A program made the translations under genes and the position numbers. From IMG/VR virus record IMGVR_UViG_3300031758_000549, positions 1-24,627 of that record: a DNA stretch of 24,627 nt; one strand, given 5' to 3'. The notes below the pieces were generated by a model that saw nothing but the letters and a program-made list of their open reading frames with translations, searched no databases and was not told where the DNA came from. This stretch comes from a virus. Of the stretch, positions 1,300 through 18,125 are shown one piece after another (the first letter of the stretch is position 1; each line of letters opens with the position of its first letter).

Positions 1300-1686
1300 T
1301 TAGACCCAGCCTGGCTCTCCACGCTTAATCCAAATTGGTTCGCATTGGTCTGAAGTTCCTTTAGCAGATGGACACATCCACGCTTGCCAAGGTCCTTTAC
1401 CACTTGCTCCTGCTTTGTGTTTGCGTGTTCCGTGTTTGCAACTTGGTGATGGTGTACTTGGTGCAGCAACATTAATTGCTGTAACAGTTCCACCAACAGC
1501 ACTTGCAATTTCAGAAATAGACATTGGACTCATTACTTCTTCCAATGCACCAATAACTGATTCAACTTTTCCAGCAACAGCATCACTTACGTTTTTGCTG
1601 AAGGCTGACCAATCATCACCACGAACGGTAAGGATTGTTCCTTTCGGTGTCTTTACGTTTGCTACAAACGTTGACTCACTTGACAT
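1300..1686 (-). CDS. Unknown replication-operon protein with C-terminal Cys/His cluster
   Basis: 128 aa, not assigned to a family by name. The N-terminal half (STFVANVKTPKGTILTVRGDDWSAF) looks like two beta strands and a turn; a Ser/Ala/Val-rich middle follows. The C-terminal part has CKHGTRKHKAG, then QAWMCPSAKG, then QCEPIWIKRG: a C..H....C....C pattern likely to bind zinc. Start ATG 1686 overlaps the stop of the upstream nuclease fragment (1676-1678) by eleven bases and has AGGAGA in front. The place between nuclease and ATPase suggests a DNA-binding accessory, perhaps single-strand binding or helicase loading; that is inference only. Confidence 0.7.
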   Translation of the reverse strand: MSSESTFVANVKTPKGTILTVRGDDWSAFSKNVSDAVAGKVESVIGALEEVMSPMSISEIASAVGGTVTAINVAAPSTPSPSCKHGTRKHKAGASGKGPWQAWMCPSAKGTSDQCEPIWIKRGEPGWV

Positions 1687-2365
1687 TGATTACTTCTCCT
1701 AACGGAAGATGGTTCTTACCATCTACCCAATAGCAGTGCTCCTGATAGGAACACAGTTTACATCCCTCGAAGTTAGGCAGATATAAATTATTCTCTCTCG
1801 CTTTTTGAAAGAGACTAACCATTTCATCTAACTTTCTTAATGTAAATTTATCTAGGCTAGTAGGAATACTTGTGCTTCCTTGTCTAGCCATCCAGTATAC
1901 GCCGTAAGACGGACGTATTCCCAATGCACGTTCCATCATACAAGCATAAACTTGTAATTGTAAATCTGATTGTGGTGTTCTTATTCCTGTCTTAAGGTCT
2001 AAGATTACTAATTCACCTTCAGGTGTAACGAATACTCGGTCAATGGCACCTTTCATAAAGATGTCACCAATTTTAATTTCAATCATTAATTCAATGGCAG
2101 GTCTACCTTCAGGTGTTGTCCATAGTTTCCAACCTGAACCTTTACGCCACTCAACCCAGTTGTTTAAGAACGTTTTTCCATTCTCAAACCACCAATCATA
2201 GTTCTCACCATTAGGGTTAGCCTTAGTTGTTCTTGTTGATTGTCTAAATGAATCTTTAGGTATTAAGTCATAACTTCTGTCTTTAGATTCAAATGTCCAA
2301 GCGTCTGACCAAATCTTATTAATATCCAATTTGATTAAGCCTTTCTCTTGGAATAATTTTACCAT
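1676..2365 (-). CDS. Cas4/RecB-type PD-(D/E)XK nuclease, C-terminal fragment
   Basis: 229 aa carrying the catalytic half of a Cas4-like exonuclease: MKGAIDRVF at 104-112 (motif with the metal-binding Asp109), LVILDLKTG at 119-127 (Asp123-x-Lys125), QLQVYACMME at 136-145 (the QxxxY motif), then GCKLCSYQEHC at 201-211 with three cysteines that in this family join one N-terminal Cys to hold a 4Fe-4S cluster. The usual N-terminal segment with that Cys and the conserved His is absent here but is encoded at 2782-2991. Start ATG at 2365 lies inside the end of the intervening ORF, preceded by a weak AAGAAAG. Expected role: 5' or 3' end processing of DNA in recombination or replication. Whether the two pieces rejoin non-covalently is unknown. 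Confidence 0.8.
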   Translation of the reverse strand: MVKLFQEKGLIKLDINKIWSDAWTFESKDRSYDLIPKDSFRQSTRTTKANPNGENYDWWFENGKTFLNNWVEWRKGSGWKLWTTPEGRPAIELMIEIKIGDIFMKGAIDRVFVTPEGELVILDLKTGIRTPQSDLQLQVYACMMERALGIRPSYGVYWMARQGSTSIPTSLDKFTLRKLDEMVSLFQKARENNLYLPNFEGCKLCSYQEHCYWVDGKNHLPLGEVINVK

Positions 2366-2792
2366 AACTTTCTTGTATTCCTATGTTCCAACCGTCCTCG
2401 GCGCGTATCCAACCAAGCACTTCAACTTCTTTAAACTCTGGCGCAATAGCAATAGCACCAACAATTATTAAATCTCTGTTTAAATCTTTATGTCTTACGG
2501 CAGGACCAGATTTAGTTCTGACTCTTCTAACTTCAATGTTAGTTCCAACATCAGGAATAAATTTATTATTTTCGTGTTTACTTTCATCCCAAATAGATGC
2601 TGTCCAATATTGATTCATCGCTTTAGCAACTGCTAATTCGCATATAGCACTAGCAACTTGTGCTGTTCTATCATCTTCCATACGAGACCTATCGTAATAA
2701 GATGCATCAGATTTATCCCAGTTCGCTGTAAATCTTCTGATACCTATATAACTTGCGTATTCATATTCCCAAGGTTCAAGTTTAATTAACAT
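2319..2792 (-). CDS. ORF inserted between the two nuclease fragments; PD-(D/E)XK-like
   Basis: 157 aa in a third reading frame. It starts inside the end of the N-terminal nuclease fragment (ATGTTAATTAA overlap at 2782-2792, with GGGAGA in front) and ends 47 bases inside the C-terminal fragment. Visible features: MEDDRTAQVASAICELAVAKAM around 38-59 resembles the GExA helix of small nucleases; FIPDVGTNIEVRRVRTK at 78-94 gives D...E-x-R, a degenerate form of D-(E)xK; a strand-rich part with VEVLGWIRAEDG follows. I know similar stand-alone proteins in phages but no proven function. Its position, exactly where an intact nuclease gene should continue, suggests a mobile or homing-type insertion, though Arg replaces the catalytic Lys. 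An ordinary neighbour gene captured by rearrangement is the alternative. Confidence 0.7.
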   Translation of the reverse strand: MLIKLEPWEYEYASYIGIRRFTANWDKSDASYYDRSRMEDDRTAQVASAICELAVAKAMNQYWTASIWDESKHENNKFIPDVGTNIEVRRVRTKSGPAVRHKDLNRDLIIVGAIAIAPEFKEVEVLGWIRAEDGWNIGIQESYGKIIPRERLNQIGY

Positions 2793-2991
2793 TATTTTCT
2801 GTCTCCCATAATTCTAAATCATAGATTTCTGTTGCCTTGTGTACTGCTGAACCACCAAGATTCCAGATTGCTGGTTGCTCATCAACTTTTGCTATGCGTC
2901 CAAGATAGTACTGCCATCCACAGTTTAACCAAGTTGTTAATGATGAATATGAAACGTGTTCTGGTACTTGATGACCATTAATTTCTAACAT
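2782..2991 (-). CDS. Cas4/RecB-type nuclease, N-terminal fragment
   Basis: 69 aa from ATG 2991, which has GGAG at the proper distance (ggagataaaATG); a longer in-frame ORF reaching 3096 lacks such a site and would run through a hairpin. The peptide contains HVSYSSLTTWLNCGWQYYL, where Cys24 corresponds to the first ligand of the Cas4/AddB iron-sulfur cluster, and GGSAVHKATEIYD, where His51 corresponds to the conserved motif I His. The text then stops after LWETENNVN, just where the family continues into the segment found at the start of the 1676-2365 ORF (WSDAWTFE). It is the first gene of the leftward operon after the control region. Confidence 0.75.
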   Translation of the reverse strand: MLEINGHQVPEHVSYSSLTTWLNCGWQYYLGRIAKVDEQPAIWNLGGSAVHKATEIYDLELWETENNVN

Positions 2992-3061: not shown

Positions 3062-3212
3062 GAAGTGCAAAACACTTCTAAGTAAAACAATACCAAAGGT
3101 TTATCATTTATGCAAACGCATAAATGATATTAATATAATTACTACTATAGTAGTTATATTATATTATATATATTAATACTATAGTATTTAATACTATAGT
3201 ATTTAATAATAT
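3062..3212. promoter_or_regulatory. Divergent AT-rich control region with stacked palindromes
   Basis: This stretch separates the leftward nuclease operon from the rightward lysozyme-like gene. It contains a hairpin GAAGTG/CACTTC (3062-3078), a near-perfect 12-bp stem with a four-base loop at 3102-3129 (arms ATCATTTATGC and GCATAAATGAT), the 14-bp palindrome ACTACTATAGTAGT (3141-3154), and two copies of AATACTATAGTATT (3175-3188 and 3190-3203) spaced by 15 bp. The shared core ACTATAGT suggests binding sites for a dimeric regulator. Many TATAAT-like strings allow promoters both ways, but I cannot pick one. An origin of replication is another possibility. Confidence 0.55.
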
Positions 3213-3312
3213 ATATCCCCACCCTGCCACCCTCTAGTTTAGTACTAGAACTTTAGGTTTGTCAAATCCCTAATGCTTGTGGTAAGGTGGTCCGTACGAA
3301 CAAAGGAGATAA

Positions 3313-3657
3313 ATGTTCATACCAATAATTCTTTTAAGTTTCCCTCCTGCTGTAATGTCGGAGCAAATAAAAGAATCTCCTGTCTTAAGTCGTGCTTATG
3401 TACGAGGTCAAGCAGAAGTTAAAGGTTGGACAGGTAATCAATGGAGTTGCCTTGATGAATTAGTTTGGCGTGAATCTAAGTGGAAGATAGACGCAGACAA
3501 TCCTAAATCATCTGCTTTTGGTTTATTCCAGATGTTAAAGACTCCCGAAGATACCGAAATCGAGGAGCAAACAAAACGAGGTTTAAGATATATCGAACAT
3601 AGATATAAAGAACCTTGTTCTGCCTTAAGACATCACGATAGAAGAAATTGGTACTAA
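3313..3657 (+). CDS. Lysozyme-like / lytic transglycosylase-type protein
   Basis: 114 aa, the only rightward gene in the early arm. The start has an ideal ribosome site (AAAGGAG, six bases, ATG). A short hydrophobic start (MFIPIILLSFPPAV) could be a signal or anchor segment. The body contains QWSCLDELVWRESKW (43-57), with Glu54 in the WRESKW context that holds the catalytic acid in transglycosylase-SLT folds, and SSAFGLFQML (66-75), the typical 'A-x-GLFQ' motif. RGLRYIEHRY near 89-98 matches the later 'G..YI..RY' helix. It would cleave peptidoglycan, either as an endolysin or during entry. It is short for an SLT domain, so it may be a minimal actinophage type. It ends convergently, overlapping the stop of the next leftward gene by four bases. 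Two variants of the CTTAAG palindrome lie inside it. Confidence 0.7.
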   Translation: MFIPIILLSFPPAVMSEQIKESPVLSRAYVRGQAEVKGWTGNQWSCLDELVWRESKWKIDADNPKSSAFGLFQMLKTPEDTEIEEQTKRGLRYIEHRYKEPCSALRHHDRRNWY

Positions 3658-12882: not shown

Positions 12883-13299
12883 ATGGCTAACGAAGTAGTC
12901 TCAGGCGTAGGTAGAAACGCCAAACGTACTGATAGAAATATTTCTAGCCGTACAACTCAGCCTATTCGTGAAATGAAATCACAAAAGTACGGCGAAGGTA
13001 AAGCATTACTAGAACAACAAAGAATAAGCCCTATGGCTGGAAGTGTTAAAACACCTAAGATTGAAACAGCAACTGCTGCTCCTAAAACTCCTGTTGTTCC
13101 ACTAACTGCTGAAACGCAATATCCTGACCAACCTGCTGAAGTAGGTTTACCATTTGGTGAAGGACCAGGACCAGAAATCTTTGGCAACCTTAATCCAGAA
13201 CCAGAAACATTAACAGATATTTTAGGACGTATGGTTAACGCTGATGCTTCAGGAGAAGTAAAAGCAATTTACGAAAACGCCTTATTACAAGGACAGTAA
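12883..13299 (+). CDS. Small conserved protein downstream of portal
   Basis: 138 aa, ATG with AAGGAA. A basic N-terminus (RNAKRTDRNISSRTTQPIRE) is followed by MKSQKYGEGKALLEQQRISPM, a recurring segment (YGE...LLEQQ...PM) in proteins next to actinophage portals. The middle is Pro/Thr-rich; the C-terminus is a helix. Probably a head-associated accessory protein; no enzymatic motif. Its stop and the next start overlap as TAATG. Confidence 0.65.
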   Translation: MANEVVSGVGRNAKRTDRNISSRTTQPIREMKSQKYGEGKALLEQQRISPMAGSVKTPKIETATAAPKTPVVPLTAETQYPDQPAEVGLPFGEGPGPEIFGNLNPEPETLTDILGRMVNADASGEVKAIYENALLQGQ

Positions 13300-16200
13300 T
13301 GGCTGATAATAAAGAAATACAAGATTATTCAGCAGAACTGTATAAAACTGTAACTAAGTTTAGCCCTACCCCTGCTCAAACTGCTGAACTTAATGGTTGG
13401 GCTGGTATTCAAAATGTTAATCAACGTTTATACAGTTTCAACGACCCTATCTTAGCAAATAAAGAATTTAACAAACTTGATAAGAATATTCAAGACATTA
13501 TTGCTCAACAGAATCCTAATGCACCTTTTTTACCTCAACCAGAAAAAAAAGGTTTCATTAAGCAATCATTAGAAGGTTTAAGAAGTTACGCTAACTTAAT
13601 TACTGGCGTATATCGTGGTGCTAAGTTTGCACAACAAGAAAAGATTTCATTCTCTAAAGCCTGGGATATGACAAAAGGCAACGGAGAAGCATTTTTTGAT
13701 AGGGACCGTGTACAAAAAGTTGATGCTTTTTATGCACCTGCAGTTGCTAAAGTTGCCAAGATGGCATCTATGGGTAAAAGTTCTGGAGAAATACTAGCCA
13801 ACATTAATATGGCTAACGCTGCAGAAGTACAAGCATATCAAGATTACCTTGATGTTGAAAATAATAAAACAATGCAACAGGCTCTTGGCGATTACAATAT
13901 GGCTAAGATTTCTCTTGGTAGAGATATTGCTTATGACATCTTTGGTCTTAGAGTTAAACCAGGCGAATACGGAACTGCTAAACGTACAGCCTTTGGCGTT
14001 GTATCTGCTGTTGGTGATTTAGCAAACAATATTATATTTGACCCACTAACTTATGTTGCTCTTCCTTTTCAAGTAGCAAAGATTGGTGCACTGGGAGTAA
14101 CTCGTGCAGCAACACTTGGTGGTTTAGGAAGAACCATTACTGGTGAAGCAGCCTTAAGTGCAAAGATTTCAGATGCTTTTACTCATCCATTATTTGGAAA
14201 AGCAGTAACTAGATTTTATGATAACATTGGTGCTCAAGTAGAGCGTCTTGCTAAGGGAACAGAAGAAGAAGCAAACCAGGCTTTTGGTATTATCAATAGA
14301 CAATTTGGCAAAGACATAAGACCTGATGTAGTTCAGGCTATGGTTAAAGCAAAAGTATTCAATGCTGATGCTGCTAAGAAATTTTTTCAAGATGCAGAAA
14401 ACTTTAGTTTACTTACTAACGGTAAAAAAGTATTAGGTAAAGACGTTATTCCTACCTATAGCATTTTTCGTGGGTATAAAAACGAAATTAAAAATGCTAT
14501 GCTTAGAACAACAGGGATTAGCACAACTAAAAAAGGTGCTACTGCTGCAGGGATAACTAGCGAAACATTATTAAAAACTATTGCTAGACCAGATTTTCTT
14601 CAAGATAAAGTAGCGCAAGAACAATTAACTGCAGCAATTAAAGATTCTGCTAGCAAAGCAAGTAGATTTGCACGCTTTATTGAGATAGCCCCTAGTGCAA
14701 AGACTATTAAAATTGCTAGATATATTGGTCCAGACGGTAAAGAAGTAGACGAAGGCTTAAAATCCCTTAAGGATGTTATATCTTTAGGTCGTATTGCTGG
14801 TATGTCTCGTCCAGATGCTGATGAACTAGGTAGATTATGGACAACTGCTAGTGTTGCTCAACGTAGAAACATTCATAAAGGTTTAGTATTTGCAATATCT
14901 GATGAACTTGGATTATTCCAAGGTATGGATAGTGCCAGAATAATGAATAAACTTGACAAAATTGCAGGAACTCAAGAATACGCATTAGAACAAAACATAG
15001 ATGCTGCATTGTATAAATCAATGCCAGAAGATATGCGTAAATTTCTTGATAATGCTTATAGGTCTACTGGTGGCGTATTAAAAACTATTAAAAGCACAGG
15101 AAGACCAATTACTTTTAACCCTGGAAAGTTAGGTTCTGATAGGGCTGCTGCAGCGATGGAGCATCAATTATCTTTTGAACTAAACACTCCAGACCTTCGT
15201 GCTATTCGTTCTGAGGTTTATAGTGCTAGAGGGGCTAAGATTCGTTCTCTTGGTCAAGTGTTTAATAATAAATACGCTGATGCAGTTGTAAGTACTTGGG
15301 CTTTTTTAACACTTGTCCCACGTTTAGGTATTCGTTCTGCTATTGAAGAAATAGGTGTATTTGGTTTAGTTACCACACCTAAAACATTAGTTAACTTAAT
15401 ACGTTATGGTTATCCAACTAGCCGCGCTGGAAGAATAGTTAAAGATTCTGATGCTAAGTTTTTTGATAGTAAAGGCGTTGGTGGTCCTACTCGTGTTTAC
15501 TATGCTATGTTTAAACCAAATCTTACTAAAGAGATTAAAGAAAGCATTGACAAAGATTCAAGCATAGAAAACGTAGCCCTTCAAACCAATGTTGCTATAC
15601 AAAAAGGTAGATTTGGATTTAATCGTTCTTTAGACCAACAATTTACTAAAGATACTGAAGATTTAGTTAGATTTGGATATGATTCAACTGGCTATAAAGA
15701 AGCAACTATGTCAGTTACAGCATCAACAGATATTAGTGGTGCTGCTGCCAAGGGATATGGCGCTGGAGCAGTTGTAATACCAGAACAAGGTCCTTCTTTA
15801 GCCTTTAGTATGAATAGAAAAAAGTTTGAGAAAGAATTTACTTCAGAAGGTCCTGCTGTAGAAATTAAACTACAAGACCAACCAGATGCTTACTATATGG
15901 CTCTTGGTGTTGAAATGTTTAAACGTGCAGGAGTAGCAGGTAATACATCTAAACTTGCAATTAAATATATTGATAACCCTAAAAAGGCTATCGAGGAAAT
16001 ACGTAAAGAATTAGATAAGAATACAACTTTAGCAAGCGCATTTACTAATAACGTAGATGCTAACGTTACTAATAGTCAATTAGCATCATCTATTTACTTT
16101 GCTACTCGTCAAACCTTTACTAATGCAAAAGGTGAAGTTAACCCTGATTTAGTTAAACTTGTTTACACTAGAGGTAAAGACAAAAACGGTAAGATAGTTG

Positions 16201-18125
16201 ACAAGTGGACTCCAGATATTGATATGGAAAAACTGCGTCTAATGAAAGGCAAAGACCTTCCTGTTACTGTCTTAAGTCAAAAGTGGATTCCTATTGCTGA
16301 AAATCAAGGTGGATTGATTGATGCTATAAATAGAAAAGGCTATGCCTGGATGGACCGTCAAATATCCACAATGACCAGGGAACCTATCTTTACTGCTAAC
16401 TATCATACTTATCGTAAAGAGTACAGAAACTTAGAAAACATAAAGCGTAATACCTTAATTAAAAATGGTATGAGTCCAGAGGCTGCAGATAAAATTGCTA
16501 GAAAGTATGCTAGTGATTTAGCAACAGATGCAGCAGGTAAGCGTACATTAGACTTTGTTGATAATCCATTAATTAGAACTAATCTTGCATTTGGATTACG
16601 TAACTTTGCTCGTTTTTATCGTGCAACAGAAGACTTCTGGAGACGTGCCTATAGAATAGGTACTCAGCAAACAGATGCGATTATTCGTTTAAGATTAGCA
16701 ACTCAAGGTTTAGAACACTCAGGCTTTATTTATGAAGACGACCAAGGCGAATTATACTTTGTATTTCCTGGTGATGATATAATTTATAATGCTATATCCA
16801 TAGCACATAGATTTATTGATGGTAAATCAAATCTTAAATTACCACAATCATTACAATTTAGTGGTAAAGTTAAGTTCTTATCACCATCATTAGACCCACA
16901 ATCAGCAATACCTACATTCTCAGGTCCACTTGCTGGTATCTCAATGGTTGTTTTACAACAACACGCACCTAATTTTTGGGGCATTAGAGATAGATTACTT
17001 GGTGTAACTCTTGGCGAAATGAGCAAGAACGCAACATATAAAGATGTTATTCTTCCTCCAGTTGCCAAACGTATTATGTCATTTATGTCTCCTAACGATG
17101 TTAACGGTGAAATGGCTTCTGCTCAAAGACAAGCCTATGCTTACCTTGTTGCAAATGGTGAAGGTTTAGACATAGGTGCTACACCTGAAGAAAAACTAGA
17201 ATTTCAACAAAACTTAGAAGCACTAGCATCTAACATATTAACTACAAGATTTGTATTAGGTTTAGTATCTCCAGTTGCATTAAGTGCGTCTGCAGGTAAA
17301 GACGTTAGCGCTACACTAAAAGATTTAGGTAACGTTAACTTTAAATCTGAATTTTATAAAACAGTAGAAGAACTAACCCTTCAAGGTTCAACAGACCCTT
17401 GGGGTGAAGCCAATATGAAATGGGCTAAGGCTAAGCCAGGTGTACTTGCTTACACAATAGCCCAGACTGAAAGAAATACTATTGTTGGTCTTCGTCAAAC
17501 TACAGATGCTATTGCTTGGTTACGTAAGAATGAAGCATTAGTTAATAAATATCCAGAGGGTTCTGCTTTCTTTGTACCTAATACAGGTACATTTGCTATT
17601 GATGAATCTAGATTCTTCCAAAGAGAAGGATTTATTGACAAGATTCCAGTAGAAGAATTTATGACTAAAGTAACTGCTCAAGAACAATTGAATGAATACT
17701 ACGCTAAACGCGATGAATGGGATTCAAAGATTGAAAATGCACCAGAAAGTATACGTGCAGTTATCCGTCAGCAAAAGACTTTAGATATGCAAGAGTTTAC
17801 TAAAGGTAAATACTACTTGCAAAAAGCACTAGAGAATTATGGAAGCGCTGCAGATACAACTGCTGCTTGGGAAGAACTTGTCAGAATGATTGACAATGGT
17901 GATGTTCCTAAGACTCCAAATTCACAAAAAGTTGTAGATATAGTTAATCTTGTACAACAAGCAAATAACGCTACAGCGATGATGTTTGATGGAACTGTAG
18001 ATGCTTCTCAACGTAGAAGTTTAATACGTAATAACGCTATGCAACAAGCATTAGAGATTGCTGCAAATGATGCAGGTCTTATAAGAATCATTAATACTGT
18101 TGTTAAGAAACAATTAGGAGTTTAA
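13299..18125 (+). CDS. Giant probable internal virion / ejection protein, 1608 aa
   Basis: By far the largest gene, filling 4.8 kb between portal-linked and scaffold genes. It is mostly helical with hydrophobic stretches: about residues 215-275 (AFGVVSAVGDLANNIIFDP, YVALPFQVAKIGALGVTRA) and about 665-710 (TWAFLTLVPRLGIRSAIEEIG, VFGLVTTPKTLVNLI). A segment rich in aromatic and basic residues (LRNFARFYRATEDFWRRAYR) lies in the later half. I found no polymerase DxDGD motif, no SLT motif and no tape-measure-style repeats. Large helical proteins at this place in podoviruses are packaged in the head and ejected to cross the envelope. That role is inference from size, position and membrane-like segments. 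Arginine codons here use AGA and CGT, unlike the capsid gene. Confidence 0.65.
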   Translation: MADNKEIQDYSAELYKTVTKFSPTPAQTAELNGWAGIQNVNQRLYSFNDPILANKEFNKLDKNIQDIIAQQNPNAPFLPQPEKKGFIKQSLEGLRSYANLITGVYRGAKFAQQEKISFSKAWDMTKGNGEAFFDRDRVQKVDAFYAPAVAKVAKMASMGKSSGEILANINMANAAEVQAYQDYLDVENNKTMQQALGDYNMAKISLGRDIAYDIFGLRVKPGEYGTAKRTAFGVVSAVGDLANNIIFDPLTYVALPFQVAKIGALGVTRAATLGGLGRTITGEAALSAKISDAFTHPLFGKAVTRFYDNIGAQVERLAKGTEEEANQAFGIINRQFGKDIRPDVVQAMVKAKVFNADAAKKFFQDAENFSLLTNGKKVLGKDVIPTYSIFRGYKNEIKNAMLRTTGISTTKKGATAAGITSETLLKTIARPDFLQDKVAQEQLTAAIKDSASKASRFARFIEIAPSAKTIKIARYIGPDGKEVDEGLKSLKDVISLGRIAGMSRPDADELGRLWTTASVAQRRNIHKGLVFAISDELGLFQGMDSARIMNKLDKIAGTQEYALEQNIDAALYKSMPEDMRKFLDNAYRSTGGVLKTIKSTGRPITFNPGKLGSDRAAAAMEHQLSFELNTPDLRAIRSEVYSARGAKIRSLGQVFNNKYADAVVSTWAFLTLVPRLGIRSAIEEIGVFGLVTTPKTLVNLIRYGYPTSRAGRIVKDSDAKFFDSKGVGGPTRVYYAMFKPNLTKEIKESIDKDSSIENVALQTNVAIQKGRFGFNRSLDQQFTKDTEDLVRFGYDSTGYKEATMSVTASTDISGAAAKGYGAGAVVIPEQGPSLAFSMNRKKFEKEFTSEGPAVEIKLQDQPDAYYMALGVEMFKRAGVAGNTSKLAIKYIDNPKKAIEEIRKELDKNTTLASAFTNNVDANVTNSQLASSIYFATRQTFTNAKGEVNPDLVKLVYTRGKDKNGKIVDKWTPDIDMEKLRLMKGKDLPVTVLSQKWIPIAENQGGLIDAINRKGYAWMDRQISTMTREPIFTANYHTYRKEYRNLENIKRNTLIKNGMSPEAADKIARKYASDLATDAAGKRTLDFVDNPLIRTNLAFGLRNFARFYRATEDFWRRAYRIGTQQTDAIIRLRLATQGLEHSGFIYEDDQGELYFVFPGDDIIYNAISIAHRFIDGKSNLKLPQSLQFSGKVKFLSPSLDPQSAIPTFSGPLAGISMVVLQQHAPNFWGIRDRLLGVTLGEMSKNATYKDVILPPVAKRIMSFMSPNDVNGEMASAQRQAYAYLVANGEGLDIGATPEEKLEFQQNLEALASNILTTRFVLGLVSPVALSASAGKDVSATLKDLGNVNFKSEFYKTVEELTLQGSTDPWGEANMKWAKAKPGVLAYTIAQTERNTIVGLRQTTDAIAWLRKNEALVNKYPEGSAFFVPNTGTFAIDESRFFQREGFIDKIPVEEFMTKVTAQEQLNEYYAKRDEWDSKIENAPESIRAVIRQQKTLDMQEFTKGKYYLQKALENYGSAADTTAAWEELVRMIDNGDVPKTPNSQKVVDIVNLVQQANNATAMMFDGTVDASQRRSLIRNNAMQQALEIAANDAGLIRIINTVVKKQLGV

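Follow-up and report, generated by a model that had tools for sequence, protein, structure and literature searches.

Two neighbouring open reading frames (ORFs) of a viral genome most probably encode the two chains of one obligate exonuclease of the Cas4/RecB family, whose active site and cysteine staple would be completed in trans; judging from the sequences, we give this reading a probability of about 0.85. The window, i.e. the whole stretch of DNA analyzed, comprises 24,627 nucleotides of the IMG/VR record IMGVR_UViG_3300031758_000549. An earlier, sequence-only reading had suggested that a split nuclease may work here in trans, and with active site and cysteine set divided between the chains, this is still the best explanation. 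The finding is more general than was supposed at that time: the two-chain Cas4-type nuclease is a fixed trait of a phage group.

Gene layout and division of the nuclease motifs

On the minus strand between 2991 and 1676, the window sequence and its ORF translations contain three ORFs that overlap one another. As previously described, the middle one (157 aa) lies in a third frame and overlaps both others. The features are as follows:

2991-2782, minus strand: N-chain gene, 69 aa, ATG start, AGGAG just upstream; carries C24 and the motif-I H51.
2782..2815, minus strand: junction as delimited from the sequence, with GGGAG and the overlap between the insert's start and the 3' end of the N gene.
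2792-2319, minus strand: middle insert gene, 157 aa, ATG start, GGGAG upstream; PHROG 18407 (function unknown), PD-(D/E)XK-like.
2329-1676, minus strand: C-chain gene, 217 aa from TTG 2329 (229 aa if ATG 2365 is used); residues counted from the TTG are D97, D111-x-K113, Q124xxxY128 and C190/C193/C199.
1300..1686, minus strand: downstream gene, 128 aa, a conserved neighbour whose start overlaps the stop of the C-chain gene.

The C ORF had been correctly located (1676-2365), but its start is more likely TTG 2329 than ATG 2365, because close relatives start at the same TTG; AAAGG is found about 10 nt upstream of it. The insert has its own ribosome site, as had been noted, and this GGGAG lies inside the end of the N gene. 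Start and stop codons bound the insert, with no extra sequence. The downstream 128-aa gene has a variable N-terminus and a C-terminal part with a weak match to mycobacteriophage gp49 / PHROG 364; the label of PHROG 364, ribonucleoside reductase class II, probably concerns a small shared domain. Directly upstream of the split nuclease, on the opposite strand, lies a small transglycosylase-like gene (3313-3657, plus strand). The AT-rich intergenic segment between this gene and the divergent N gene (3097-3240) contains repeated palindromic TACTATAGTA units and is possibly a regulatory region or an origin. Elsewhere in the window, an ORF of 1608 aa (13299-18125, plus strand) is flanked by portal-side genes and head genes; it has no PHROG match.

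The N ORF matches positions 11-69 of the PHROG 1870 exonuclease (E=1.9e-10), and the C ORF matches positions 98-298 (E=1.2e-50). Because distinct parts of the same family are matched, the two ORFs represent two pieces of one protein, in agreement with the sequence-only reading. The C ORF scores above the Pfam cut-offs of both PDDEXK_1 and Cas_Cas4, and the N ORF matches the N-terminus of PDDEXK_1 with an E-value (0.00033) that narrowly fails the cut-off; the profiles PHROG 1870, PDDEXK_1 and Cas_Cas4 jointly span the two ORFs and place them in the family by sequence. The full motif set, i.e. motif-I His, Asp, Asp-x-Lys, QxxxY and four cysteines, is present across the pair and distributed as first reported. 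All ten key residues are retained in each of the 159 fully covered pairs of relatives (159/159), two on the N chain (C24, H51) and eight on the C chain (D97, D111, K113, Q124, Y128, C190, C193, C199). Single-chain homologues align across the break, and the identical residues are invariant in them; this alignment, which the sequence-only reading had called for, places the break in a variable segment that follows the motif-I helix.

The C chain as modelled with AlphaFold2 has a confident core, whose fold matches include the Cas4-family ACE1, AdnA, EXO5, Dna2, MGME1 and SSO0001 (E 4e-7 to 1e-3). Modelled alone, the C chain is thus predicted to adopt the RecB/Cas4 nuclease fold. Its last 32 residues (186-217), which contain the three cysteines, have a pLDDT below 50. 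This low confidence would fit a tail that needs the N chain for its cysteines to be held, although the shallow alignment behind the model (21 rows) could also explain it.

We propose that the N chain supplies the motif-I helix, including H51, together with the first of the cysteines, while the C chain would contribute the remaining three cysteines, the QxxxY motif and the catalytic residues D97, D111 and K113. Both chains would be translated separately from neighbouring genes, the C start overlapping the N stop in the plain form, and would then assemble, presumably on a metal cluster to which both contribute cysteines. The break lies in a loop connecting two helices, and in this phage group it is old and stable. 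Complex formation, the Fe-S cluster and nuclease activity are predictions of this model, as is a presumed role in phage recombination or DNA processing.

At first sight the reading frame is broken, and the pieces might be remnants of a decaying pseudogene. Between the window type, which carries the insert of family I, and the nearest relative with another insert (L010, family J), dN/dS is 0.085 for the N chain and 0.16 for the C chain. Purifying selection acts on both chains, and this holds for relatives that differ in their inserts as well. Selection, the intact key residues, the retained start codons and the size and diversity of the group all contradict decay, which we regard as practically negligible.

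Spread of the two-gene form

IMG/VR was searched with the C piece and with the N piece, and every locus was scored mechanically. The searches yielded 162 distinct protein pairs, each split at the same place. Since such searches rank by similarity to the query, these counts describe the present phage group and not all phages. Relatives with one intact gene, which had been expected under the sequence-only reading, were looked for; no fused form was found among the environmental relatives that could be scored (162 distinct pairs), and only distant homologues are fused. Except at contig ends, none of the scored loci contains one chain without the other; because neighbouring phage genes tend to be inherited together, this co-occurrence alone proves little.

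Seven actinophage records, read in detail, contain single-chain homologues, as does one Streptomyces genome. The latter has the best match of a genome scan (31%), in which no close cellular relative was detected. All fused relatives are distant from the split group, and the tree topology requires only a single change from fused to split, with a weakly supported root. The separate N part annotated in Cutibacterium phage YG1 was dismissed as a matter of annotation only: the frame is open throughout.

Among the phage-collection records, the closest are OX376640 and OX376641, i.e. the phages LanE43-AprE7 and LanE43-AprF5 ('Ca. Planktophila'), which possess the two-gene form with no insert. In the searched passages of PMC10202952 they are reported as the first isolated phages of 'Ca. 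Nanopelagicales', and a split nuclease gene is not mentioned there. A sequencing error, by which the sequence-only reading might have fallen, is rejected: three more IMG/VR contigs from other samples are 99-100% identical to the window, and the split occurs at the same place in many independent relatives and in the two cultured isolates.

No gene separates the halves in 119 of the 162 pairs. In these insert-free pairs the C gene starts with ATG in 112/119 and overlaps the N stop in 111/119 (ATGA and similar). GGAG-type sites precede the C start in 47/119, against 10.7% in the surrounding coding sequence, and about 60% of the insert-free junctions have no strong Shine-Dalgarno site in the span tested. 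The frame of C relative to N varies by lineage (69 versus 50 of the 119).

These data bear on the question whether a continuous protein might nevertheless be produced, through ribosomal frameshifting in insert-free loci, or through splicing of an intron or a split intein where an insert is present. That N and C match different parts of one protein family would agree with this, as would the overlap of only a few bases at insert-free junctions. However, a conserved frameshift is not the explanation, because the frame relation differs between lineages; moreover, the C start is a real start codon. For splicing, no ribozyme or intron family was found in the window (Rfam), and the insert is delimited by its own codons. 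With about 10 aa in the N tails and a few aa in the C leaders, there is too little sequence for split-intein halves; an intein had already been discounted by the sequence-only reading on account of the differing frames, and we concur. The N tails are also variable, and in one locus (L128, see below) the tail is even borrowed from a deleted insert. A continuous product therefore appears very improbable.

Gene exchange at the junction

Something lies between the halves in 43 of the 162 pairs, one of which (L222) is counted only owing to unread bases in its sequence. At least ten kinds of gene, small nuclease-like proteins among them, occur at this same junction across relatives, sometimes two in a row, whereas in other relatives the C gene directly overlaps N. 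The inserts include the I family (the 157-aa type of the window), the J family, part of which matches PHROG 18407, the B family (about 130 aa, conserved ELK motif), DUF7004, an SLT transglycosylase (L137, L142, L148, L173), ORFs of 58, 71 and 41 aa, and further ORFs in L384, L400 and L412. I and B families are also common in other gene neighbourhoods. The B-type family (L417-L496) has the conserved motif YIELKxRxTHY and is widespread in phages outside the junction; it has no Pfam or PHROG match. In the window a transglycosylase-like gene stands beside the nuclease, on the other strand; in the four relatives a transglycosylase gene is instead placed inside the junction.

Unrelated small genes swap in and out of the N/C junction between close relatives. 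L012 and L013 are 100% identical in N and C, and only one of them has a B gene. L126, with the 41-aa ORF, and L128, with no insert, share 98-100% identity, and the window type and L010, whose inserts differ, share 91-95%. On the tree, the I, B and J inserts need three to four changes each. We rejected L128 as an ancestral empty site: its N-chain tail, NKMEQL, equals the C-terminus of the J-type insert found in L127 (L128:1-160). L128 represents a secondary loss, because its N tail retains the terminal codons of a J gene that was deleted; hence inserts also get lost. Nuclease genes are often found where phages exchange DNA (PMC10448857).

The 157-aa family has 441 relatives in IMG/VR, and of the 80 kept most reside in other gene neighbourhoods, where the sequence-only reading had proposed to look for them. 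E52, K57, D81 and E87-x-R89 are invariant in the family, so that the D...ExR residues singled out before (D81, E87-x-R89) are indeed conserved. The AlphaFold2 model (mean pLDDT 90) has the order alpha-beta-beta-beta-alpha-beta, which fits a PD-(D/E)XK core. This fold is a plausible assignment and no firmer, because the best PDB match, the restriction enzyme NaeI, reaches only E=0.39, which is not significant; no Pfam match was obtained. The protein may act in homing, in defence or in counter-defence, or its gene may be a passenger.

What is more difficult to sustain is the view that this protein, as a free-standing homing endonuclease, split an intact nuclease gene in the way mobE split nrdA in phage Aeh1, as the sequence-only reading had it. 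The PD-(D/E)XK-like character of the insert, the presence of its family in many unrelated places and its position exactly at the junction speak for such an event, and split enzymes of this origin are known (PMC2988022). Nevertheless, the insert-free majority (119/162) is split as well, which contradicts the present insert as cause; unrelated genes, the transglycosylase included, occupy this site in other relatives; about four changes on the tree are required to account for the I-type insert; and none of the fused relatives is close, a single fused-to-split change being enough. We consider this origin unlikely. The deletion in L128 left two overlapping ORFs, and because of this precedent an earlier insertion, since lost, could have made the original split.

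Under the preferred reading of a two-chain nuclease, the 157-aa insert is a later occupant of the junction between two genes. The junction tolerates and exchanges small genes, the nuclease-like gene being the occupant in the window. A fuller proposal, to which we attach roughly even odds, would be an obligate heterodimeric Cas4-type nuclease with a predicted Fe-S cluster bridging both chains and an activity dependent on assembly, whose junction serves as a protected exchange site for small nuclease or accessory genes.

Relation to known nucleases and split genes

The split phage enzymes known so far are mostly isolated cases attributed to a homing endonuclease, and in the open-licence papers searched we found no description of a two-chain nuclease of this group. 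Here, the two-chain form is maintained by a large and diverse phage group, to which two cultured phages of an abundant freshwater bacterial order belong. The group is a natural test case for the assembly of an Fe-S nuclease from two pieces, and for the question why an existing split persists and attracts other genes. In annotation, the N chain (about 60-70 aa) can easily be overlooked or labelled hypothetical.

The single-chain Cas4-family exonucleases of PHROG 1870 (mycobacteriophage, Rhodococcus, Gordonia and Cutibacterium phages) belong to the same family and share the catalytic residues and the four cysteines; a further likeness is that in several records the gene lies near a DnaB-like helicase gene. 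They consist of one polypeptide, whereas here the sequence is divided between two genes, with the break in the loop that follows the motif-I helix. Cas4 and AddB bind their cluster through one N-terminal and three C-terminal cysteines (PMC3466216). These Fe-S nucleases (e.g. SSO0001) have the same 1+3 cysteine layout and a RecB-type nuclease core, but all four cysteines reside in one chain; in the present case the first is on a separate protein and the cluster is predicted.

Split T4-type genes (nrdA/mobE of Aeh1, gene 60/mobA of T4, 43A/43B of phages 25 and 44RR; PMC2988022) likewise encode an enzyme as two separate pieces, between which lies a nuclease gene or other sequence; for nrdA and for the 43A/43B pair of phage 25, functional reassembly has been shown (PMC2988022). 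In contrast to these, the split described here is common to a large group and mostly insert-free, and its inserts are diverse and swapped. Fractured genes with split inteins (Dassa et al. 2009, as cited in PMC10448857) also carry a nuclease gene between the halves, but there is no room for intein halves here. The nearest parallel is phage 25, in which an endonuclease possibly invaded an already split gene (PMC2988022). Split phage enzymes are thus already known as a kind, and the present case is a variant that is fixed across a freshwater phage group.
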